Shown in pieces: positions 17,132 to 63,709 of a stretch of 64,000 bases of DNA (within the stretch, counting starts at the first letter, position 1; every line of letters starts with the position of its first letter). Source of the stretch: Acidobacteriota bacterium. Its GTDB lineage: Bacteria; Acidobacteriota; Terriglobia; Bryobacterales; UBA6623. Location: positions 372,001 to 436,000 of the forward strand of contig WGMB01000003.1 in assembly GCA_016125275.1 (NCBI GenBank), read 5' to 3'. A model generated the notes under the pieces. That model had not been told where the DNA came from, did not search any database, and saw only the letters and a program-made list of their open reading frames with translations. Both the position numbers and the translations under genes were made by a program.

Positions 17132-17221
17132 GGAGAGATGGCCGAGTGGTTGAAGGCGCACGCTTGGAAAGCGTGTATAGGGGAAACTCTATCGAGGGTT
17201 CGAATCCCTCTCTCTCCGCCA
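17132..17221 (+). tRNA. tRNA-Ser(GGA)
   Basis: A class II tRNA cloverleaf. The acceptor GGAGAGA pairs with TCTCTCC, the D-arm contains TGGCCGAGTGG, the anticodon loop CTTGGAAAG gives anticodon GGA (reads UCC/UCU), a long variable arm follows (TATAGGGGAAACTCTATC), and the T-arm is GAGGGTTCGAATCCCTC. The 3' CCA is encoded (17219-17221). Confidence 0.97.
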
Positions 17222-17495: not shown

Positions 17496-18590
17496 ATGAG
17501 CGCCCCCCATCGACAACGCCCGACGTGCTCCGGGCCGCTGCAGAGAGGCCTCCTTCTGGCCTGCGGCTGGGGCCTTTTAGCCTTGGGATGCGGCGGTGCG
17601 GCCGCCGCGGATAGCGACCTGACCCAGGCAGCCAAGCCCGCCGTCGAGACTCCTGCCGACCAGTCAGAAACTCAGTCCTCCAAAGTACGTCGGGAAGTTC
17701 GGGCGACCGGTACAACCCAGGCGGTTCGATATTTAGTGGTCCAGTCGCCGCGGATCAGCGGACAAGGCAGCCGGCTCACGCTCGTACAACTTGCGCTGAA
17801 TGGCTCAACGGTCCAGGAAGGCGAGGTTCTTGCCGAGTTCGATCCGACCGATCAATTGGAAGCGGATCGTCAGGCTGAAGCCAAGTTCGAGGATCTGGGG
17901 CATCAGGTGGAACAGAAGCTCGCCGAAAACGAGGCCGAAGCCGCCAAGCGTCGATTGCAGCTCAGCCAGGCGGAGTCCGAGTTGGCGGATGCGGAGATCG
18001 AGCTCCGCAAGGGACCGCTGCTGAGCGAGATCGACCGTCTCAAGAACGAAACCAAGGCCGCAGCCGCGCGGGCGAAGGTGAAGAGCCTCCGCATTTCGAG
18101 TGAGCACCGCGAGGCGGCCGAGCAGAGCGCCCTGCGCGTCTTGGAGCTCCAGCGCGAGCGCCAGCGGGTGGCCCTCGATCGCGTGCACAACAACCTCTCC
18201 AAGCTCAAGCTCACCGCGCCGCTCGGCGGCATGGTGGCGCTGGAAGCCACCTGGCGCAACGGCTCGATGGGGCACGCCCAGGAGGGCGACCAAATCTACC
18301 CGGGCAGACCCCTGCTCCGCATCTTTGACCCCTCGGAGATGGAAGTGGCCGCCTATGTGGCGGAGACCGACCGGGGCGCGCTCCACCCCGGCCAGACCGC
18401 CGTCGTGGAGCTGGACGCCTATCCCGACGTGCGTTTCTCGGCGAAGCTCGCGTCGGCCAGCCCGGTGGCCGCGTCGGCGATCGGAAGTCCGATCAAGACC
18501 TTCCTGGCCCGGTTCCGTCTGGACCAGAGCGACGCCCGACTGCTGCCGGACCTGTCGGCGGTCGTCGTGCTGCAGGTGGACGAACCATGA
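17496..18590 (+). CDS. HlyD-family periplasmic adaptor lipoprotein (first of three)
   Basis: This 364-aa protein has a lipoprotein-type signal (GWGLLALGC lipobox). The adaptor layout follows: a lipoyl-type half with VQSPRISGQGSRLTLVQLALNGSTVQEGEVLAEFDPTD, a long coiled-coil hairpin (about 125-235, Glu/Ala/Arg-rich), the second lipoyl half KLTAPLGGMVAL, and a beta-barrel with DPSEMEVAAYVAETDRG and HPGQTAVVELDAYP. Adaptors bridge inner-membrane ABC or RND transporters to an outer-membrane channel. It overlaps the next adaptor by ATGA, so expression is coupled. No outer-membrane factor gene is nearby. Confidence 0.85.
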   Translation: MSAPHRQRPTCSGPLQRGLLLACGWGLLALGCGGAAAADSDLTQAAKPAVETPADQSETQSSKVRREVRATGTTQAVRYLVVQSPRISGQGSRLTLVQLALNGSTVQEGEVLAEFDPTDQLEADRQAEAKFEDLGHQVEQKLAENEAEAAKRRLQLSQAESELADAEIELRKGPLLSEIDRLKNETKAAAARAKVKSLRISSEHREAAEQSALRVLELQRERQRVALDRVHNNLSKLKLTAPLGGMVALEATWRNGSMGHAQEGDQIYPGRPLLRIFDPSEMEVAAYVAETDRGALHPGQTAVVELDAYPDVRFSAKLASASPVAASAIGSPIKTFLARFRLDQSDARLLPDLSAVVVLQVDEP

Positions 18591-19879
18591 CGGAAACGGC
18601 GCGCCAGCCCGGCTTGGAGCCGGAGCCGCGGGCTGCGTCCGCCCCGACGCGGGGCAAGCGCCGCTTGTGGGCCGGCCTGCTCATGGTTGCTTGCTTGGCG
18701 GCGATCGCCGCGGGCGGAGCCTCCCTGTTTCGCGGCCGACAGACGGACGGGAACTTGCCGACGGCGCAGGCCCGCGTGGGAGAGTTCCTGGCCTTGGTGC
18801 GCTGTCGCGGCGAGCTGCGCGCCGGCCGTTCAGCGCAGATGGTGGCGCCCCTCAACGTTCCCGAGCTGCGCATCGTCTGGCTGGCCAAGGAGGGAGAGCC
18901 GATCCGGCAAGGCGAACCCGTGATTCGCTTTGACCCCTCCAGCGCGTCGCGGCAGCTTGCCGAGAAGAAGGCGGCCCTCGAAGAGGCGACGGCGAAGCTC
19001 GAACAAGCCGAAGCGGAGGCGCGAATCGAAGCCGAACAGGACCGCTTGGATCTCGCCAACGCCCGCTATGAGGTGGAGAGGGCGGAGCTGGAGGTCTCGA
19101 AGTCCGAGATCCTCAGCGCCATGCAGGCCGAGCGCAGCCGGTTGGCTCTCGAGCTGACCCGCGAGAAGCAGCGCGTGCAGGAAGCGACGAATCGGCTGCA
19201 CGTCGCCTCGAGCGCCGCAAAGGTGGCGGCGCTGCGTCGGGGCAAAGACGAGGCGCAATCCGAGGTCGAGCTGACCGAGTATCGCCTGTCCCGGATGGAG
19301 CTGACCGCGCCGCTGAACGGCATCATCGTCTTTCTCGACAACTACTCGCAGGGCTGGATGAACGCCAAGCCGTTCAAGGTGGGCGACCAGGTCTGGCCCG
19401 GCGCGGCGATCGCGGAGATCCCGGATCTGTCCACGCTGGAGATGGAGGGCAAGCTGGAGGAGACCGATCGGGGCCGGGTGCGGGAGGGCCGCGAGGTTCG
19501 GGTTCGGCTGGACGCTCTGCCCGAGCTCTCCCTGGAGGCCCGGCTGCGAGGGGTTTCGCCGCTCACGCAGCAGAGCTTCGACTGGCCGCCGACGCGGGAT
19601 TTTCGCGGCTACGCCCCGATCGCGAAGCCCGACGAGAGGCTGCGGCCCGGCATGACGGGGACGATGGACATCGTCGTCCATCGCATCGCCGACGCGGTCA
19701 TCGTCCCGGCGCAGGCGCTATTTACGCTCGAAGGCAAGCCGGTCGTCTACGTCAGGCAGGGCCGTTCCTACCGCCCGACGGTCGTCGAGATCACCGCGGA
19801 GAACCCGGATGAGTTTGCGATCGCCGGTATCGCCGGCGACGCGACATTGGCGCTGGCTGAACCGGAGGCCCAGCCGTGA
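18587..19879 (+). CDS. HlyD-family periplasmic adaptor, membrane anchored (second of three)
   Basis: The 430-aa protein has an N-terminal basic stretch and one TM helix (about 25-46: LWAGLLMVACLAAIAAGG). It continues with a lipoyl half ending AKEGEPIRQGEPVIRFDPSS, a long Glu/Ala/Arg coiled-coil hairpin (about 120-235), a second lipoyl half MELTAPLNGIIVFL, and beta-barrel/membrane-proximal domains (EETDRGRVREGREVRVRLDALP; RLRPGMTGTMDIVV). It has MacA/HlyD-type domain order but only modest sequence resemblance to the other two adaptors. It overlaps both neighbours (ATGA upstream, GTGA downstream), which suggests stoichiometric expression. Confidence 0.85.
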   Translation: MTETARQPGLEPEPRAASAPTRGKRRLWAGLLMVACLAAIAAGGASLFRGRQTDGNLPTAQARVGEFLALVRCRGELRAGRSAQMVAPLNVPELRIVWLAKEGEPIRQGEPVIRFDPSSASRQLAEKKAALEEATAKLEQAEAEARIEAEQDRLDLANARYEVERAELEVSKSEILSAMQAERSRLALELTREKQRVQEATNRLHVASSAAKVAALRRGKDEAQSEVELTEYRLSRMELTAPLNGIIVFLDNYSQGWMNAKPFKVGDQVWPGAAIAEIPDLSTLEMEGKLEETDRGRVREGREVRVRLDALPELSLEARLRGVSPLTQQSFDWPPTRDFRGYAPIAKPDERLRPGMTGTMDIVVHRIADAVIVPAQALFTLEGKPVVYVRQGRSYRPTVVEITAENPDEFAIAGIAGDATLALAEPEAQP

Positions 19880-21162
19880 AGCTGTTTCTGGCGCTGGCCG
19901 GGGCCCTGGCGGCGCTCGGTCTGATCGGCGTTTGGCTTCATGGTGAGGAAGACGCCGAGGCCGTGGCGACCGTCGCGGCGGCCCCCAGCACTCCCAGCAC
20001 GGTCGTGCGCAGCGGCGAGGTCGTCTTCAACGTGACCGCCCGGGGCGAGTTGCAGGGCAGCCAGAGCGTCATGTTGACGGCCCCGATGACGGGCAGCGCC
20101 GAGTTGGTCATCACCGACCTGCGCACGGCGGGCGAGCTGGTGCAGGAGGGCGACGTGGCGGTGGAGTTCGACATCACCGAGCTGACCTTCAATCTGCGCG
20201 AGGCGCAAGCGGATTTGGCGGAGGCCGAGCAACGGCTGGCGCAGTCCAAAGCGGAAAGCCTGGCCAAAGCGGAAGAGGCCCGCTTCCTGTTGCTGCAAGC
20301 CGAGAGCGACTTGGCGATCGCCGAGTTGGAGGCGCGGCGCAATGAGCTGCTCGCCGCCATCGTGGCTCGTCAGAACGATTTGGCCGTAGGCTCCGCTCGC
20401 GACCGTCTGCAACAGCTCCAGACCGACTTGGCCAGCCGCCAAGCCACCAGCGACGCCGGCGTCGCCATCCAGGAAGCCGCCGTCAACAAGGCCCGCGTCA
20501 AGGCCGAAACGGCGCAGAAGACGATCGAGTCGATGACTCTGCGGGCGCCCCGGGACGGCTATGTCTCGCTGCAGCAGAATCAGGGCAGCGGCTTCTTTTC
20601 CTGGGGCATGCAGTTGCCGATCTACCAGGTCGGCGACACGGTTCGGCCCGGAATGGCCGTCGCGCAGGTGCTCGACCTGGGCGGCTGGGAGCTCAGCGCG
20701 CGGCTGGCGGAGTTGGACCGCGGTCACCTCTCGGTCGGCCAGCCGGCTCGCATCCGCGTGGCGGGCGTGCCGGGCAGCCGCTTCGAGGGCCGCGTCAAGA
20801 GCATCGGCAACACCAGCGGTCCGCCATGGGATCGCCGCTTCGAGTGCAAGCTCTCGATCGAGAACCCCAGCCCGGACTTGCGTCCCGGCATGAGCGCCGA
20901 GATCGAGATCGAGACCGAACGCATCGAGGCCGCTCTGTGGGTGCCGTCCCAGGCCCTCTTCGATCGGGACGGGCAGAAGTTCGTGTACCGCTGGGATGAC
21001 GGCGCGTTCTCCGCCGTGGACGTCGGACTCGTGCGGGCCGGAGAGAGCCAGACCGTCATCGAAGGGTTGGCCGAGGGAGACGTCGTCGCGCTCGCCGATC
21101 CTTCCAAGATGCAGGAGGCGGTCACGTCGTCCACGGCGACGGACGCACTGACGAACCGATGA
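19876..21162 (+). CDS. HlyD-family periplasmic adaptor (third of three)
   Basis: The 428-aa protein begins with a hydrophobic anchor or signal (KLFLALAGALAALGLIGVWL). Next come a lipoyl half (LRTAGELVQEGDVAVEFDITE), a coiled-coil hairpin of about 125 residues (95-220), the second half TLRAPRDGYVSL, an insertion (NQGSGFFSWGMQLPIYQVGD), and beta-barrel and membrane-proximal domains ending with DLRPGMSAEIEIE and VPSQALFDRDGQKFVYRW. The GTG start at 19876 overlaps the preceding stop, and its own stop overlaps the permease start (ATGA). It is the best candidate for the direct MacA-like partner of the permease that follows. Confidence 0.85.
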   Translation: MKLFLALAGALAALGLIGVWLHGEEDAEAVATVAAAPSTPSTVVRSGEVVFNVTARGELQGSQSVMLTAPMTGSAELVITDLRTAGELVQEGDVAVEFDITELTFNLREAQADLAEAEQRLAQSKAESLAKAEEARFLLLQAESDLAIAELEARRNELLAAIVARQNDLAVGSARDRLQQLQTDLASRQATSDAGVAIQEAAVNKARVKAETAQKTIESMTLRAPRDGYVSLQQNQGSGFFSWGMQLPIYQVGDTVRPGMAVAQVLDLGGWELSARLAELDRGHLSVGQPARIRVAGVPGSRFEGRVKSIGNTSGPPWDRRFECKLSIENPSPDLRPGMSAEIEIETERIEAALWVPSQALFDRDGQKFVYRWDDGAFSAVDVGLVRAGESQTVIEGLAEGDVVALADPSKMQEAVTSSTATDALTNR

Positions 21163-22442
21163 GCGCACCGGTACGGCGCAGCTTTGGCTACAGCCTGCGG
21201 CGCGGGCTCGCAGATCTCCGCATGGCCGCCGAGAACCTGCGCGCGCAAGCCGTTCGCACGCTGCTCACGGCGCTGGGGATCGTCTTCGGCGTGGGTTCGG
21301 TGATCGGCATGCTCGCAATCGGAGCCGGAGCCCGCGAAGAGTCTCTGCGCTTCATCGAAGAGCTCGGCGTCCGCAACGTGCTGGTGGAGTCCCGGCCGGC
21401 GGCGAGCCGCGAAGAGCTGCAGCAGCGGCGCAAAACATCCCCCGGGCTCACCGAGCGCGACGTCCGCATTCTGGAGGCCAACATTGCGGACCTCGAAACC
21501 CTTTCCCCGCGGCGAACCCTCCACCCCAGCCGGCTGCTACCGAAACCCTCCAAGGAAACCCCGGAGATGTATGGGGTTCGATCCTCCTACGCGGTCATTC
21601 ACAGCTTGCGGGCGGGCGAGGGGACGTTCTTCAACGACGACCACGACGCCTCCAGCGCCTCGGTCTGCGTGCTCGGAGAGGCCGCCAAGATCAACCTGCT
21701 CGGCTACGGCTCGGCGCTGGGCAAACACATCAAGGTCAATGACACCTGGCTCGAAGTGATCGGGGTGCTCGGCGAGCGCTCCCGCGCGGGGGACCGCAGC
21801 CTAGGCGGCCAGTTGGAAGACCTCAACAACCGCATCTACATCCCGTTCAATACCTTCCAGTACCGCTTTTGGGACCAGAGCAGCTTCATGAAGGACGAGC
21901 TCGACGGCATCGACCTGCGGTTGACGCCGGAGGCCGACAGCATCGCCACTGCCAAGGTGGTGACGGCCGTGCTCAGCTCGACGCACAAAGGCGTGGAGGA
22001 CTTCTCCGTCACCATTCCGGCGGCCCTGCTGGCGCAGCAGCAGAGAACCCAGACGATCTTCACCTACGTGATGGTCGCGATCTCGGCGATCTCGTTGCTG
22101 GTCGGCGGCATCGGCATCATGAACATCGTGCTGGCCACCGTCCTCGAGCGGACTCGCGAAATCGGAGTGCGGCGCGCCACGGGAGCCCGCCGAGTGGACA
22201 TCGTGCGCCAGTTTCTAGCCGAGGCGACCCTGATCTCCATCGGTGGAGGCCTGCTGGGGATCGGCTTCGGCTTCTTCTTGTCCTGGCTGATCGCCAACGT
22301 GGCTCAGTGGAAGACGATCGTCACGCCCGTCTCGGTCGGCGTGGCGTTTGGGGTTTCCGTGGCGATCGGAGTGCTGTTCGGGCTCTACCCGGCGGTCAAA
22401 GCCGCGCAGATCGACCCGATCGAAGCCCTGCGGTACGAGTAA
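21159..22442 (+). CDS. MacB-like ABC transporter permease (FtsX/MacB_PCD), no ATPase domain
   Basis: This 427-aa protein shows the MacB type VII ABC topology: an N-terminal helix (LRAQAVRTLLTALGIVFGVG), a periplasmic core domain (about 60-300) and three C-terminal FtsX helices. The typical motif SLLVGGIGIMNIVL is followed by ERTREIGVRRATGAR. It ends DPIEALRYE, as MacB-type permeases do. Such permeases work by mechanotransmission and need a cytosolic ATPase, which is absent from this protein and from the operon; the next gene is convergent 2 bp away. The ATPase must be encoded elsewhere or shared. Confidence 0.9.
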   Translation: MSAPVRRSFGYSLRRGLADLRMAAENLRAQAVRTLLTALGIVFGVGSVIGMLAIGAGAREESLRFIEELGVRNVLVESRPAASREELQQRRKTSPGLTERDVRILEANIADLETLSPRRTLHPSRLLPKPSKETPEMYGVRSSYAVIHSLRAGEGTFFNDDHDASSASVCVLGEAAKINLLGYGSALGKHIKVNDTWLEVIGVLGERSRAGDRSLGGQLEDLNNRIYIPFNTFQYRFWDQSSFMKDELDGIDLRLTPEADSIATAKVVTAVLSSTHKGVEDFSVTIPAALLAQQQRTQTIFTYVMVAISAISLLVGGIGIMNIVLATVLERTREIGVRRATGARRVDIVRQFLAEATLISIGGGLLGIGFGFFLSWLIANVAQWKTIVTPVSVGVAFGVSVAIGVLFGLYPAVKAAQIDPIEALRYE

Positions 22443-23481: not shown

Positions 23482-26199
23482 CTACTCGTTGCGGAGCGCG
23501 ACGTTCGGGTCCACACGCGCGGCGCGCCACGCCGGCAGCCCGCCGGCCGCCAGAGCGACTGCCGCCATCGTCGCCACCACGAAGGCGATCGTGCCCGCGT
23601 CGGTCGGCTGCACGCCGAACAGCAGCGACGCGATCAGCCGGTTCAGCACCAGCGCTCCCGCCAGACCGAGGACCACGCCGATCGCCGTCACCGCCAGACC
23701 CTGCCTCAGCACCTGGCCGACCACGTCGGAACGAGTCGCCCCCAGGGCCACGCGAATGCCGATCTCGCGCCGGCGCTCGTTGACCATGTAGGAGAGCACC
23801 CCGTAGGCGCCGAGGGCCGCCAGCAGCAACGCCGCTCCGGCAAACGCGCCCAGCAGCAGCGCCAACAGCCTCGGCCGGCGAATGGCTTCGGCAAAGACCG
23901 ATTCCATTTCCCGCAGCCGCACTACCGGGACGGCCGGATCCACGTCCCGCACGACGCGTTCGACTGTTGCGGATAGAGCCGACGGCGGCAGCGTCGTCCG
24001 CATCACCACGTTCATGCTCGGCGGCGCCACGCCGTGCTGGTCCAGTGACAGGTAGACTTCCGTGCCGGCCGAGCGCTCGACGCCGCGCTGCGGAACGTCC
24101 TTGGCGACGCCCACGACCGTGTGCCAGACGTCCTCGGAACCGCCGAACGACCAGCCCGGAGGCCGCAGCCGACGACCCAGCGGATTCTCGTCCTTCCAGA
24201 GCCGCTTCGCCAACGTCTCATTGACGACGACGGACTTCGCCTGTGATGCGCCGTCGTTGCGCTCGAAGCCGCGCCCGGCGACGATCGGAACGCCCAGCGT
24301 CCCAAAGTAGTCGCCCATCACGAACTGGTAGTAGTCGATCGCCTCGGACGGCTTTCCCTCGTCGGAGACGTAGTTCTCGATCGGCGTCGCGATCGCGTCG
24401 GGGGTCCGGTTGGGCGGCAGCCCCGACATGGCGACCGTTCCCAGCACCCCTGGGACGGAGCGCAATCCGTCGAGGACGCGCTGGTACGCTTGGGCGCGCG
24501 TGTCGGCTTCGGAGTTCGCCATCGGCAACGTCATCGAGAACGTCACCAGGCGCGAACGATCAAAACCCGCATCGAGCTCGGTGAGGTTCCGGACCGTCCG
24601 CACCAACAAGCCCGCGGCGAGGACCAGCATCACCGCGCAAGCGACCTGAGCGACCACCAATCCGCGGCGCGCGTATTGCCGCGAGGCGCCGGCGGAGCCT
24701 CTCCCGCCCTCCTTGAGCGCGGCCGCCACGCCGGGACCGCCTCGGCGACCGAGCGACACGAATCCGAACAGCAGGGCGGCCCCCACGGAAAGCCCGAGGG
24801 CCAGTAGCAGCGCCGGCCCGTCGAGCGTCAACTCGGCCGCCCTGGGAATGCTGCCGGGATAGGCGCGGACGAGCGCCCGGAGGCCGGCGTCCGCCAGCAG
24901 CAGCCCCAGGATTCCGCCGGACGCAGACAAGATCGCGCCTTCGGTGACCGCCTGCCGCAGTAACCGCCCGCGACTTGCGCCGAGCGCGGTGCGCAGCGCC
25001 AGCTCCCGCCTCCTGGAGCCTGCGCGGGCCAGCGCCAGATTCGAGAGGTTGGCGCAGACGATCAGCAGCACGAATCCCACGGCGGCTTGGAGCGCCCAAA
25101 GCGGTTCCCTGGCGCCTCCGACGATGGCGTCCCGCAGCGGCTGGAGCCGGAGCGTGTGGTCCGAGATGGCCGCGGGGCGATTGGTGGGGACGTGGCCGGC
25201 GTCACCGACGCGCTCGCCCCACTGGTCGACCAGCGCGCTGAGCTCGGCCTCCGCCGCCTTCGCGGAGACCTCCGCCTTGCGCCTCGCTATGGCGTAGAGG
25301 ACGTGGGTCTCTCGCTGCCGGGCCATGTCCGGGTGCAGCCAGAGGGGCAGCCAAACTTGGACGCGGCGATCCATGACGTCAGCCCCGGGCGGCATGACGC
25401 CGACGATCTCATGCGGCCGGCCCTCGATCGGAACGGTTTGTCCCACAAGGGGCCGCGCGGAGAATGCGGTCGTCCACAGCTCGTGGGAGAGGATCGCGAC
25501 CGGCGGCGGCAGCGTCCCCGCCCAATGCTCGGTCTCGTCCTCGGTAAAGAGCCGGCCCTGTTGCGGCAGGAGCCCGAGGGTCCCCAGCAGATGCGCGTCG
25601 ACGGAAACGGAGCGCACGCGCAGCGGCTGGTCTCCGGCGACCAGGTTGACCTCGCCGGTGGTGTAGGTGGCCCCGCCCGTGGCGTACGCGCCCACGTCGG
25701 CGAACGATCGGCTCATGCGACGCAGCTCGGCGTATTCGGGCGCGGAGAGAGGCCCTCGAAGCTCCCCCGCGGCCGGCGAGGCCGCCGTTAGATCCATCAG
25801 TTGCTCGGGGTCGGGATAGTCGAGAGGCTGGAGCAGCGCGTGATCGACGATCGTGAAGATCGCCGTGTTCGCCCCGATTCCCAACGCCAGGGTGGCGATG
25901 ACCACGGCCGCGAAGCCGGGGCTCTTTCTCACCGATCGCACGGCATGGCGCAAGTCCCGCACAAAGTCCTCGATCAGCCGCACGCGTCGCATGTCCCGGC
26001 ATTCCTCCTTGTAGAGCTCGACGCCTCCGACCGCGCGGCGCGCTGCCCGGCGAGCCTCCTCCGGCCCCATGCCGGCCGAAAGGTTCTCCTGGGTCAAGTG
26101 ATCCAGGTGGAAGCGAAGCTCGGCGTCGAGCTCGCCGTCGACCTCGTGGCGGCGGAACAGCGACCGCAGCCGCAAGCGAAGTTTTTCGAACATCCGCAT
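23482..26199 (-). CDS. ADOP-family permease (acidobacterial duplicated orphan permease)
   Basis: At 905 aa this is full length for the family. The N-terminal cytosolic region (MRMFEKLRLRLRSLFRRHEVDGELDAEL, split here by the helix start near residue 80) is typical of ADOP proteins. It is followed by a first MacB_PCD/FtsX module (ALGIGANTAIFTIVDHALLQPL; GARREL-like SRRRELALRTALGASRG) and a second module (AYGVLSYMVNERRREIGIRVALGATRSDV), ending in VDPNVALRNE. These duplicated permeases have no dedicated ATPase and are numerous in Acidobacteria; substrates are unknown. A GGAGG Shine-Dalgarno precedes the ATG. A 24-bp dyad sits 38 bp upstream; PadR regulators often accompany ADOP genes but none is in this window. 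Confidence 0.95.
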   Translation of the reverse strand: MRMFEKLRLRLRSLFRRHEVDGELDAELRFHLDHLTQENLSAGMGPEEARRAARRAVGGVELYKEECRDMRRVRLIEDFVRDLRHAVRSVRKSPGFAAVVIATLALGIGANTAIFTIVDHALLQPLDYPDPEQLMDLTAASPAAGELRGPLSAPEYAELRRMSRSFADVGAYATGGATYTTGEVNLVAGDQPLRVRSVSVDAHLLGTLGLLPQQGRLFTEDETEHWAGTLPPPVAILSHELWTTAFSARPLVGQTVPIEGRPHEIVGVMPPGADVMDRRVQVWLPLWLHPDMARQRETHVLYAIARRKAEVSAKAAEAELSALVDQWGERVGDAGHVPTNRPAAISDHTLRLQPLRDAIVGGAREPLWALQAAVGFVLLIVCANLSNLALARAGSRRRELALRTALGASRGRLLRQAVTEGAILSASGGILGLLLADAGLRALVRAYPGSIPRAAELTLDGPALLLALGLSVGAALLFGFVSLGRRGGPGVAAALKEGGRGSAGASRQYARRGLVVAQVACAVMLVLAAGLLVRTVRNLTELDAGFDRSRLVTFSMTLPMANSEADTRAQAYQRVLDGLRSVPGVLGTVAMSGLPPNRTPDAIATPIENYVSDEGKPSEAIDYYQFVMGDYFGTLGVPIVAGRGFERNDGASQAKSVVVNETLAKRLWKDENPLGRRLRPPGWSFGGSEDVWHTVVGVAKDVPQRGVERSAGTEVYLSLDQHGVAPPSMNVVMRTTLPPSALSATVERVVRDVDPAVPVVRLREMESVFAEAIRRPRLLALLLGAFAGAALLLAALGAYGVLSYMVNERRREIGIRVALGATRSDVVGQVLRQGLAVTAIGVVLGLAGALVLNRLIASLLFGVQPTDAGTIAFVVATMAAVALAAGGLPAWRAARVDPNVALRNE

Positions 26200-61002: not shown

Positions 61003-61359
61003 GGGGGCGTACTGGATTCGACAGGTCAGTTATCGCTATAGAGAGGCATGCCGGGTTCCGAGCTCCCGTTAAACGATCGGTTTTCACAGCTGCCAACAAC
61101 AACACGCAGCTCGCTTACGCAGCCTAATTAGGCTACGGCGTCTCCGGTTTCGGGCCCATACGGGCCGGTCGACGTAAAAACCTCATGGGCTGGACCGAGA
61201 GCTTCTGTTCGGAGCAGCAGGTCGAGATTCAATCGGACTGGATCGCATCCGCCTTGTCCATTCATTAGGGCGCGGTCGAGACAAAGGAATGGAATAAGCA
61301 TGTAGTCTCTTTGTAGGGATCTGTCTTGGACGCGGGTTCGATTCCCGCCGCCTCCACCA
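61003..61359 (+). ncRNA. ssrA: tmRNA (ssrA)
   Basis: The one-piece tmRNA begins GGGGGCGTACTGGATTCGAC, whose first seven bases pair with the 3' CGCCTCC before ACCA (with one G-U). The T-arm is GCGGGTTCGATTCCCGC and the CCA is encoded at 61357-61359. The resume codon GCC is at 61092-61094 and the tag frame reads ANNNTQLAYAA followed by TAA (61125-61127), ending in the usual LAYAA degron. It rescues ribosomes stalled on broken mRNAs. Minus-strand frames across it are artefacts. Confidence 0.96.
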
Positions 61360-61864: not shown

Positions 61865-63709
61865 TTGCAAACCAAAAACCAGACCGCAGGCGGCGAGCCG
61901 GCGGGTTTCTGGGCCGGGTGGAGAAAGCGCCTGCGGGCGCTGAAGAACGTCCCCCCGGTCCTGAAGATCCTATGGGAGGCCGGAGGCGGTTCCGTCGCCG
62001 CCAACGCCGTCCTGCGGATCGTCGCCGCCCTCATACCGCTGGCCACCCTCGGCGTCGGCAAGCAGATCATCGACTTGGTCGTGCAGACGGCGCGCGGGGG
62101 AGGGCCGATTCCTGACGACCTCTGGGCCTGGGTAGGCCTGGAGTTGGGGCTGGCTACCTTGGGAGCCGTCCTGGCCCGAGCCATCGACTATGTCGACAGC
62201 CTGCTGGCGGACAAGTTCAGCCGCCATCTGAGCGTCCGCACCATGCGGCATGCCTCGCGCCTGGACTTGGCGAGCTACGAAGACCCCGTCTTCTACGACA
62301 AGCTCGAGAGGGCTCGGGTGCAAGCGACTGACCGCCTGGGCATGATCCAGGCGATGGGCCGGCTGCTGCAACTCGTCGTCACCACGGTCAGTCTCTCGGC
62401 CGGAATCCTCGTCTTTTCTCCCTGGCTGCTGGTCGTGCTCGTGGTCTGCGTTTTCCCGGCATTTCTCGGCGAGAGCCATTTCGCCTTCCTGGGCTACTCG
62501 CTGAGCTTTCAGCAGACTCCCGTCCGGCGTCAGTTGGACTACCTGCGCGTGCTGGGGGCGAGCCGCGAGAGCGCCAAGGAACTCAAGCTGTTCGGTCTCA
62601 GCGACGAGCTGACGGACCGCTTTCGGCGCCTCTCCGATCAGATCTTCGACCAGAATGTGGCGCTGGCCAAGCGGCGGCTTTGGGCCAGCTCGCTGCTGTC
62701 CCTGCTCAGCATCGTCGGCTACTACGGCTGCTACGTCTGGGTGATCGCCCAAGCAGCGGCCGGAGAGATCACGGTAGGGTCGCTGACCTTCCTGGCCGGG
62801 GCCATCGCCGGCGCCAGCGCCAACATTCAGTCGATCTTTTCGACGTTCTCGAGCATCGCCGACCAGGCTCTCTTCCTGACCGACCTGCTCGAGTTCTTCG
62901 CCACCAAACCCACCATCCGTTCCAAGCCGGATGCCCTGCCGGCGCCGCGGCCCATTCGCGAGGGCTTCGTCTTCGACGACGTCTCGTTCTCCTACCCGGG
63001 CAACGACCGCATGGTACTCGACGGCTTGAGCTTCCGGCTCGAACCTGGGCAGCGGGTGGCTCTCATCGGCGAGAACGGCCAGGGTAAGACGACCATCGTC
63101 AAGCTCCTGACCCGCCTCTACGACCCCACCGCCGGACGCATCCTGCTCGACGGCGTGGATCTGCGCAACTACTCCACCGAGGATCTCTGCAAGCAGATCG
63201 GCGTGATCTTCCAGGACTTCATGCGCTACGAGATGACGGCCCTGGAGAACATCGCCGTCGGACGGATCGACGGCGCGGGCGATCGCGCCGAGATCGAGCG
63301 GGCCGCCCTCAAGAGCCGCGCTTCCGAGGTGATCGCCCGCCTGCCGAAAGGCTACGACCAGCTCCTGGGCCGCCGCTTCGAAGGCGGGTTGGACCTCTCC
63401 GGCGGCGAATGGCAAAAGATCGCGCTGGCGCGAGCGTATCTGCGCGACGCCCAGGTCCTGGTCCTGGACGAGCCCACGGCGGCCCTCGACGCCCGCTCCG
63501 AGTACGACGTCTTCCAGCGCTTCACCGAGCTGACCGAGGGCAAGATGGCGCTGTTGATCTCGCACCGGTTCTCCACGGTGCGGATGGCCGACGAGATCTT
63601 CGTCCTCGAGGACGGGCGCATCGTCGAGCGCGGCGACCACGACCGGCTGACAGCCGTCGGCGGGCGCTACGCGGACATGTTCGAGTTGCAGGCGGCCAGC
63701 TATCGCTAG
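61865..63709 (+). CDS. ABC transporter with fused membrane and ATPase domains (exporter type)
   Basis: The 614-aa half-transporter has six membrane helices (about 40-320) and a nucleotide-binding domain with Walker A GENGQGKTT, Q-loop IFQDFMRYEM, signature LSGGEWQK, Walker B VLVLDEPTAALD and switch His in LLISHRFST. It should act as a homodimer or heterodimer exporting lipids, peptides or drugs. The start is a TTG at 61865 with no strong ribosome site. The gene starting at 63732 follows 22 bp later with its own GGAGG. Confidence 0.9.
   Translation: MQTKNQTAGGEPAGFWAGWRKRLRALKNVPPVLKILWEAGGGSVAANAVLRIVAALIPLATLGVGKQIIDLVVQTARGGGPIPDDLWAWVGLELGLATLGAVLARAIDYVDSLLADKFSRHLSVRTMRHASRLDLASYEDPVFYDKLERARVQATDRLGMIQAMGRLLQLVVTTVSLSAGILVFSPWLLVVLVVCVFPAFLGESHFAFLGYSLSFQQTPVRRQLDYLRVLGASRESAKELKLFGLSDELTDRFRRLSDQIFDQNVALAKRRLWASSLLSLLSIVGYYGCYVWVIAQAAAGEITVGSLTFLAGAIAGASANIQSIFSTFSSIADQALFLTDLLEFFATKPTIRSKPDALPAPRPIREGFVFDDVSFSYPGNDRMVLDGLSFRLEPGQRVALIGENGQGKTTIVKLLTRLYDPTAGRILLDGVDLRNYSTEDLCKQIGVIFQDFMRYEMTALENIAVGRIDGAGDRAEIERAALKSRASEVIARLPKGYDQLLGRRFEGGLDLSGGEWQKIALARAYLRDAQVLVLDEPTAALDARSEYDVFQRFTELTEGKMALLISHRFSTVRMADEIFVLEDGRIVERGDHDRLTAVGGRYADMFELQAASYR

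Follow-up and report, generated by a model that had tools for sequence, protein, structure and literature searches.

Organization of the gene cluster

The stretch analyzed here, called the window, is a 64,000-nucleotide part of contig WGMB01000003.1 from an Acidobacteriota bacterium (GCA_016125275.1), and this report concerns a cluster of four genes on its forward strand, at 17496-22442, which encode three HlyD-type adaptor proteins followed by one MacB/FtsX-type permease. The permeases of named relatives, 53-68% identical to that of the cluster, place the genome in Acidobacteriota, order Bryobacterales. The genome is 7.55 Mb in size, distributed on 20 contigs, and possesses 62 MacB_PCD matches in total.

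The first gene, A1 (17496..18590, +), codes for an HlyD-type lipoprotein adaptor of 364 amino acids (HlyD_D23, 56 bits) with the lipobox ...LALGC, in which the cysteine is residue 32 (codons A-L-G-C, residues 29-32, at 17580..17591, +). A2 (18587..19879, +) and A3 (19876..21162, +; GTG start) code for HlyD-type adaptors of 430 and 428 amino acids, each with a hydrophobic segment at the N-terminus; they match HlyD_D23 at 42 and 57 bits and RND_mfp at 97 and 110 bits respectively, the latter above the cut-off in both cases. All three adaptors match HlyD_D23/HlyD_3 of Pfam. The permease, PERM (21159..22442, +; 427 amino acids), contains MacB_PCD (112 bits) and FtsX (78 bits) matches in Pfam. The four open reading frames overlap by four bases each, at ATGA, GTGA and ATGA. 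An earlier sequence-only reading had described four overlapping genes for three adaptors, one of them a predicted lipoprotein, and a single permease, and reading frames, overlaps, lipobox and Pfam matches agree with it on each point.

The absence of a local ATPase, also part of that reading, was upheld. None of the four proteins contains an ATP-binding cassette (ABC) domain in Pfam, and among window frames of more than 150 codons, Walker A and the ABC signature occur together only in a fused exporter at 61865-63709, 39 kb off. An overlooked local ATPase is ruled out by Pfam and this motif scan. No match to OEP (TolC-type channel) was found across the window with a profile built from the analyzed loci; here and below, gene labels come from profiles built on these same loci and not from curated models, unless Pfam or NCBIfam is named. 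At the cluster the promoter scan gave no match, the terminator scan gave terminators no different from shuffled sequence, and the surroundings hold no gene hinting at the substrate.

Conservation of the cluster in Bryobacterales

A permease match at 1e-60 was found in 50 of 61 order-level relatives, a lower bound as at most 29 candidates were scored per genome. When the 11 negatives were re-scored with all or 150 candidates, no permease exceeded 305 bits, and in the same re-scoring one cluster-positive genome (G035) showed two permeases at 709-731 bits. The permeases form two clades. Those of clade I, from 11 relatives, are 68-72% identical to PERM; those of clade II are mostly 51-57% identical and take in a second permease copy from the window genome. 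This second copy belongs to another three-adaptor cluster on contig C11 (C11:37431-45240). Twenty order-level loci were fetched, 11 of clade I and 9 of clade II, the latter counting the second copy in the window genome itself. The order adaptor-adaptor-permease is kept in all 20 and three adaptors stand in line in 17; among the remaining three, L066 reaches a contig end, L077 has an A1-like gene on the opposite strand and in L079 none was seen. No ABC ATPase was found in any of the 20 loci, in stretches of 5.9-19.5 kb. The four-base overlaps recur in clade I (3/3 gaps in each of L062, L063, L065 and L071) and are not found in clade II, where three loci were measured.

An OEP gene follows the permease in all nine clade II loci and in 3 of 11 clade I loci, and Pfam OEP was confirmed in 5/5 genes tested, four from these loci and one from a further clade II locus (L066, L068, L071, L072, L078). 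The sequence-only reading had no outer membrane channel for the system; this holds for the window and not for the relatives just named, so the missing channel gene is a trait of the window copy and some relatives and not of the whole system.

Distribution across Acidobacteriota and in other phyla

Across the phylum, the permease profile matched at 1e-105 in 60 of 247 Acidobacteriota genomes. This search scored seven candidates per genome and another phylum count eleven, hence positives are lower bounds. From the 72 places found, 60 loci of 59 genomes, all except the window genome, were annotated; the window genome itself accounts for two more, each with three adaptors, and ten second copies were left out. 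Exactly three in-line adaptors were counted in 57 of the 60 loci by a scan able to count four or more. The exceptions have one adaptor (L250, L299) or two (L311), and L299 and L311 end at contig ends. The gene order which the sequence-only reading proposed to look for in acidobacterial genomes is found there, and its recurrence (17/20 order-level and 57/60 phylum loci) is more than chance would give. The three-adaptor arrangement is not a local oddity but recurs in many Acidobacteriota.

A MacB-type ATPase stands in line with the cluster in 6 of the 60 phylum loci, belonging to families f21 (L254, L314), f47 (L257) and f7 (L279, L291, L308). Among 80 named loci outside the phylum, three adaptors with an in-line ATPase were observed in the order ABC-3 adaptors-PERM in Shewanella (L094, L099) and Duganella (L096), and in the order 3 adaptors-PERM-ABC in Bacteroidota (L093, L105). 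A Latescibacterota locus (L086) has two adaptors and an in-line ATPase. A cognate ATPase directly outside the cluster in related genomes had been named as an observation which would speak against the earlier proposal; it exists in these loci, and is absent from the other phylum loci counted. Because relatives have the ATPase in line, the machine is probably of the ATP-driven ABC exporter kind and not ATPase-free.

Two further arrangements were seen. An additional cluster in the genome G091 (L321:10831-12037) has three adaptors and an in-line ATPase, with the permease spread over two frames by a frameshift or sequencing error. In ten Bacteroidota loci (L087, L089, L090, L091, L095, L097, L100, L104, L106, L107), one HlyD-type adaptor accompanies a MacB-type permease, and an ABC ATPase was not seen over the stretch covered (up to 10 kb each side); these loci possibly represent another exporter with a detached ATPase.

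Lineages and structure of the three adaptors

To judge the relationship between the adaptors, a tree of 104 of them was used; it was built by a quick method with support from the Shimodaira-Hasegawa-like approximate likelihood ratio test (SH-aLRT) only, and does not include Duganella L096. In the window-type family (family W), first, second and third adaptors each form their own clade (21 rows each; SH-aLRT 95, 99 and 99). The adaptors of a second family (family S; Shewanella, G105, G196 and others) likewise form one clade per position (9 rows each; 95, 94 and 99), and a fourth adaptor, A4, encoded beside a stand-alone ATPase as described below, forms one clade of 8 rows (100). The sets of families W and S are mutually separate in the tree. 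A single triplication behind all three-adaptor systems finds no support here, as family W, family S and the Bacteroidota pair hold separate adaptor sets.

The ratio of nonsynonymous to synonymous substitution rates (omega) for a same-genus pair (L069/L070) was 0.014 for PERM, 0.026 for A2, 0.058 for A3 and 0.057 for A1, at a synonymous divergence (dS) of about 0.9-1.0. A second pair, comprising PERM, A3 and A2 only, gave 0.12-0.14 with dS saturating. No internal stops were found in the cluster genes of the close pair compared. As judged from these sequences, the three adaptors are old lineages distinct from one another; all are intact and, like PERM, under purifying selection, and decay is excluded for the gene copies compared. 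Separate clades for each position together with low omega reject the idea of recent or decaying paralogues, which had been raised as a possible refutation, and the three different, strictly coupled adaptors of the sequence-only reading are borne out.

The rule-based search for a lipobox in A1 was positive for 6 of 8 rows of clade I, for none of the 7 of clade II and for 3 of 6 other family W rows. The structural model of window A1 has a hairpin (118-171/178-236), a mean predicted local distance difference test (pLDDT) score of 79.6 and values below 50 for residues 1-62; the best match is MacA (9qgy_G, Z 17.0, root mean square deviation (rmsd) 6.9, 261 aligned), covering chain residues 38-302 only. 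In agreement with the model, window A1 stops after the beta-barrel and has no C-terminal membrane-proximal part. The same holds for L082, L085 and both Shewanella rows; the part is kept in L081 and clade II. The clade II A1 proteins (L083:5060-6883, L084:5255-7003) carry a long Gly/Ser/Thr-rich insertion which is not in clade I. The motif R-x6-L-x3-S, which we take to be the adaptor tip motif for TolC binding, matched the adaptors occasionally, mostly outside the hairpin as judged by eye, and was uninformative.

Fold and predicted coupling helices of the permease

The model of PERM has a mean pLDDT of 88.7 and a predicted template modeling score (pTM) of 0.73. Its best match in PDB is 5xu1_M (Z 29.6), and it also resembles LolE (Z 26.3) and MacB (5gko_A, Z 24.3, rmsd 4.1, 398 aligned; 5nik_J, Z 21.6). 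Pfam and model together give a MacB-type periplasmic core and a four-helix FtsX permease, as in type VII exporters. PERM is not a member of the MacB equivalog (NF007826; 192 bits against a cut-off of 966), of ADOP (TIGR03434; 117 against 622), being a single permease of 427 amino acids and not duplicated, or of LolCDE (lolCE; 36 against 362). An ATPase fused to or beside the permease, by which type VII exporters are recognized, is lacking in the window cluster; the MacA-type adaptor is provided by three proteins, A1 without its C-terminal membrane-proximal part.

The segment 329-345 is the most conserved of PERM, with 4.03 against a mean of 3.34 bits in 18 ATPase-less permeases and 3.50 against 2.39 bits in a broader set of 37. 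Within it, residues 332-340 (22152..22178, +) form a model helix that connects membrane helices two and three and is predicted to be the major coupling helix; in MacB, a cytoplasmic helix at this location is the major coupling helix (CH1) according to the excerpted text of PMC8277102. The C-terminal segment 417-427 ranks second in conservation in alignment A1 and third in alignment A4, and contains a model helix of residues 420-426 (PIEALRY; 22416..22436, +), predicted as the minor coupling helix by correspondence with CH2 in the same excerpt. A predicted contact surface for a nucleotide-binding domain (NBD) is thus present on PERM, and since the NBD-contacting coupling helix is the most conserved part, an ATPase is expected for it.

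A candidate ATPase encoded elsewhere in the genome

When six in-line ATPases were combined into a search profile, it singled out one ATPase per genome in all eight Bryobacterales genomes searched, at 344-373 bits with the next at or below 293. In the window genome this is a stand-alone MacB-type ATPase on a separate contig (C7:96552-97295), with 355 bits against 284 for the next best, adjoined by the gene of A4 (C7:97323-98654). A single-copy ortholog of this C7 ATPase was found at 438-504 bits in 58 of the 61 relatives; the exceptions are G001 (74% complete) and G035 (97%), which have none, and G020 (64%), with a 326-bit match only. A4 directly adjoins the ATPase in 22 of 27 loci. Eight order-level genomes have two three-adaptor permeases, and seven of them have exactly one C7-type ATPase. 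The best PDB match of the profile is the Spr0693-0694-0695 structure (5xu0/5xu1; 316 bits).

In a 60-row ATPase tree, one group of 40 rows (85/84) holds all 11 in-line ATPases included, from three- or two-adaptor clusters, and of ten window-genome ATPases sampled only C7 falls in it. The tree was made without Duganella L096, a long branch which stood outside the main group in an earlier tree. The in-line ATPases of f21 nest in the phylum-wide stand-alone clade (100/95), so that the same ATPase clade is found in line with a three-adaptor permease there (L232/L254, L314). In one single-contig genome (G113), an ABC ATPase lies no more than about 1.5 kb from 9 of 11 MacB_PCD matches (7 places), and the remaining two matches are three-adaptor permeases without a MacB-type ATPase in the stretch covered (16.5 kb for L252; 1.5 kb flanks for L339, with one adaptor visible). 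The same genome has a stand-alone C7-type ATPase at 357 bits, with the next at 252, near an OEP gene. This complementary set is the best argument for an ATPase acting in trans on a three-adaptor permease. A 65-bit ABC match beside L252 was rejected as partner: by eye, the frame behind it is an ABC-2-like permease, and for this reason it was read as an ABC-2 type ATPase.

For the shared ATPase suggested in the sequence-only reading, profile, tree and single-copy orthologs thus give a good candidate. As the C7 clade lies beside the three-adaptor permease in f21 and beside another permease pair in other families, the ATPase is probably shared by several permeases. In three f27 loci (L319, L320, L322), an OEP gene is adjacent to the ATPase gene or close to it; two of these loci, L319 and L320, have no permease in the vicinity.

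The other pair, P1-P2, follows the genes for A4 and the ATPase, as two permeases or more, in ten loci of other families (L323, L324, L331-L337, L227), and one permease follows in five (L325-L329). In the window genome, P1-P2 is an orphan tandem pair at C1:527670-530155 (L259:9671-12156), whose members are the best matches of the operon permeases elsewhere, and it would represent a second exporter split over the genome. These operons make P1-P2 the probable ancestral partner of the C7-type ATPase. The 20 ATPase loci of this comparison were partly picked for a permease already seen nearby, and in 20 less selected loci a permease lies beside the ATPase in two (L227, L232).

Proposed mechanism and alternative explanations

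With a probability of roughly 55%, we consider the cluster to be a MacAB-TolC-type ABC exporter (type VII, mechanotransmission) which is split over the genome, with the C7 ATPase acting in trans and a hetero-adaptor tube. PERM would dimerize and recruit a stand-alone MacB-type ATPase, in the window genome most likely the one encoded beside A4 on C7, which would also be common to the C11 cluster and the orphan P1-P2 pair. The coupling helix would transmit the ATP-driven motion to the periplasmic domain, and this domain would push a periplasmic substrate into the adaptor tube. Since the adaptors are strictly co-inherited, the tube may combine all three of them, possibly as a six-membered ring containing each protein twice. 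The permease would be gripped by A2 and A3, and the lipid-anchored A1, lacking a C-terminal membrane-proximal part, would lengthen the tube. The exit would be a TolC-like channel; many order-level relatives have its gene in the cluster, and the window genome probably borrows one.

Several observations weigh against the C7 ATPase or the channel as partners. Co-occurrence, tried as proof of the ATPase-cluster partnership, failed: the ATPase is found in 47 of 60 genomes with the cluster and in 142 of 187 without it (247 genomes; Fisher p 0.86). Of the 11 order-level relatives without the cluster, 10 have a C7-type ATPase; conversely, G035 has both clusters and no C7-type ATPase. The usual neighbours of the ATPase elsewhere are A4 and P1-P2, and P1-P2 may be its sole partner. 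The window genome has four more ATPases with no permease detected nearby (C9:235k, C9:113k, C14:1184k, C1:212k). Among 13 cluster-positive genomes without a C7-type ATPase, nine also have no in-line ATPase at the counted locus, and in several of these nine, different MacB-type ATPases score 262-346 bits. Beyond the order, an OEP gene is seldom linked to the cluster: the profile built from these loci found one in 3 of 60 phylum loci (about 4 kb downstream read for most). An in-line ATPase occurs in 4 of the 13 genomes where the stand-alone ATPase is missing against 0 of 46 with it (Fisher p 0.0016; the count omits the additional in-line cluster L321 of G091, one of the 13). This mutual exclusion is weak, because the four genomes come from two families (f7, f47).

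In one alternative, which we regard as unlikely, the exporter is energized in trans by another ATPase and the C7 ATPase serves only the ancestral P1-P2 pair. It gains from the A4-ATPase-P1-P2 operons of other families, whose permeases have their best matches in P1 and P2 of the window genome, from the P1-type permeases matched in at least 213 of 247 genomes (seven candidates scored per genome), and from the four or more other ATPases noted above. Those four fall outside the in-line group of the ATPase tree, however, and f21 has the C7 clade in line with a three-adaptor permease; G113 has no P1 at 1e-70 (7 of 35 candidates scored) and still keeps its stand-alone C7-type ATPase.

That the permease needs no ATP hydrolysis and presents the adaptors in a signalling or structural role in the membrane appears quite improbable. 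Many MacB_PCD permeases of the window genome have no neighbouring ATPase, and excerpts of PMC10564751 term the ADOP-type permeases of acidobacteria orphan, but conservation in PERM is higher at the NBD-contacting coupling helix than in the remainder of the protein, and relatives keep an in-line ATPase. That the adaptors of three exporters were gathered by chance or recent duplication, the extra copies being redundant or decaying, is very improbable and already largely refuted: adaptors of one fold often duplicate, window A1 is shortened and no A1 stands in line in L077 and L079, but exactly three adaptors recur, each position has its own clade and omega is low.

Extending the exporter energized by C7, one vertically inherited stand-alone ATPase, with A4, might drive several unlinked permease modules in a hub-and-spoke manner, the three-adaptor module being an obligate hetero-adaptor pump of three non-interchangeable subunits. 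We offer this only tentatively. To our knowledge, no tripartite pump with a shared motor or a three-subunit hetero-adaptor tube has been described.

Relation to known systems

Descriptions of tripartite pumps usually give them a motor of their own and a single adaptor, or two at the most. Among the papers listed in searches of openly licensed full texts, none was found to describe an ABC exporter with three adaptors or an ATPase shared between exporters. MacAB-TolC of E. coli, A. actinomycetemcomitans and A. baumannii resembles the window cluster in the permease fold, the periplasmic core, the MacA-like adaptor fold and the TolC-type channel gene attached in many order-level relatives, but in the window cluster the ATPase is neither fused nor linked and there are three adaptors instead of one. 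The loci of Shewanella, Duganella and Bacteroidota share three adaptors and one MacB-type permease; unlike the window cluster they have an in-line ATPase, and their adaptors fall in clades other than family W (L096 is not in the tree).

TriABC-OpmH of Pseudomonas aeruginosa is a resistance-nodulation-division pump driven by proton-motive force. It also has more than one adaptor gene per pump, namely two (excerpt of PMC8277102). Spr0693-0694-0695 of Streptococcus pneumoniae (5xu0/5xu1) likewise has permease and ATPase as separate chains; it differs, according to the same excerpt, in being a linked operon with one adaptor in a Gram-positive organism with no outer membrane channel. MsmK of streptococci is one ATPase common to several ABC transporters, but serves sugar importers and not exporters (PMC4519317). 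The ADOP family is likewise an orphan FtsX/MacB-type permease common in Acidobacteriota, but is duplicated and has no three adaptors.

If the proposed exporter is real, obligate hetero-oligomeric adaptor rings and an ABC exporter motor as a common resource, as MsmK is for sugar importers, would become testable questions. It offers a concrete answer for the many acidobacterial MacB/FtsX permeases without ATPase genes. Annotation pipelines would label three-adaptor clusters of this kind incomplete.

Other features of the window and the genome

A tRNA-Ser gene lies upstream of the cluster (17132-17221). On its other side, a 905-amino acid duplicated MacB/FtsX-type permease (23482-26199, -), ADOP-like by size and domain matches, adjoins it without an ATPase. 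Near the window end are a tmRNA gene (61003-61359, +) and the fused ABC exporter of 614 amino acids with transmembrane and ATPase parts (61865-63709, +). Elsewhere in the genome, a permease which is LolC/E-like by its first residues (C18:389457-390689; L261:8457-9689) lies beside a lysS-like gene with no ATPase alongside, and the neighbours of a stand-alone ATPase at C9:235.7k are mltG/yqgF-like genes.

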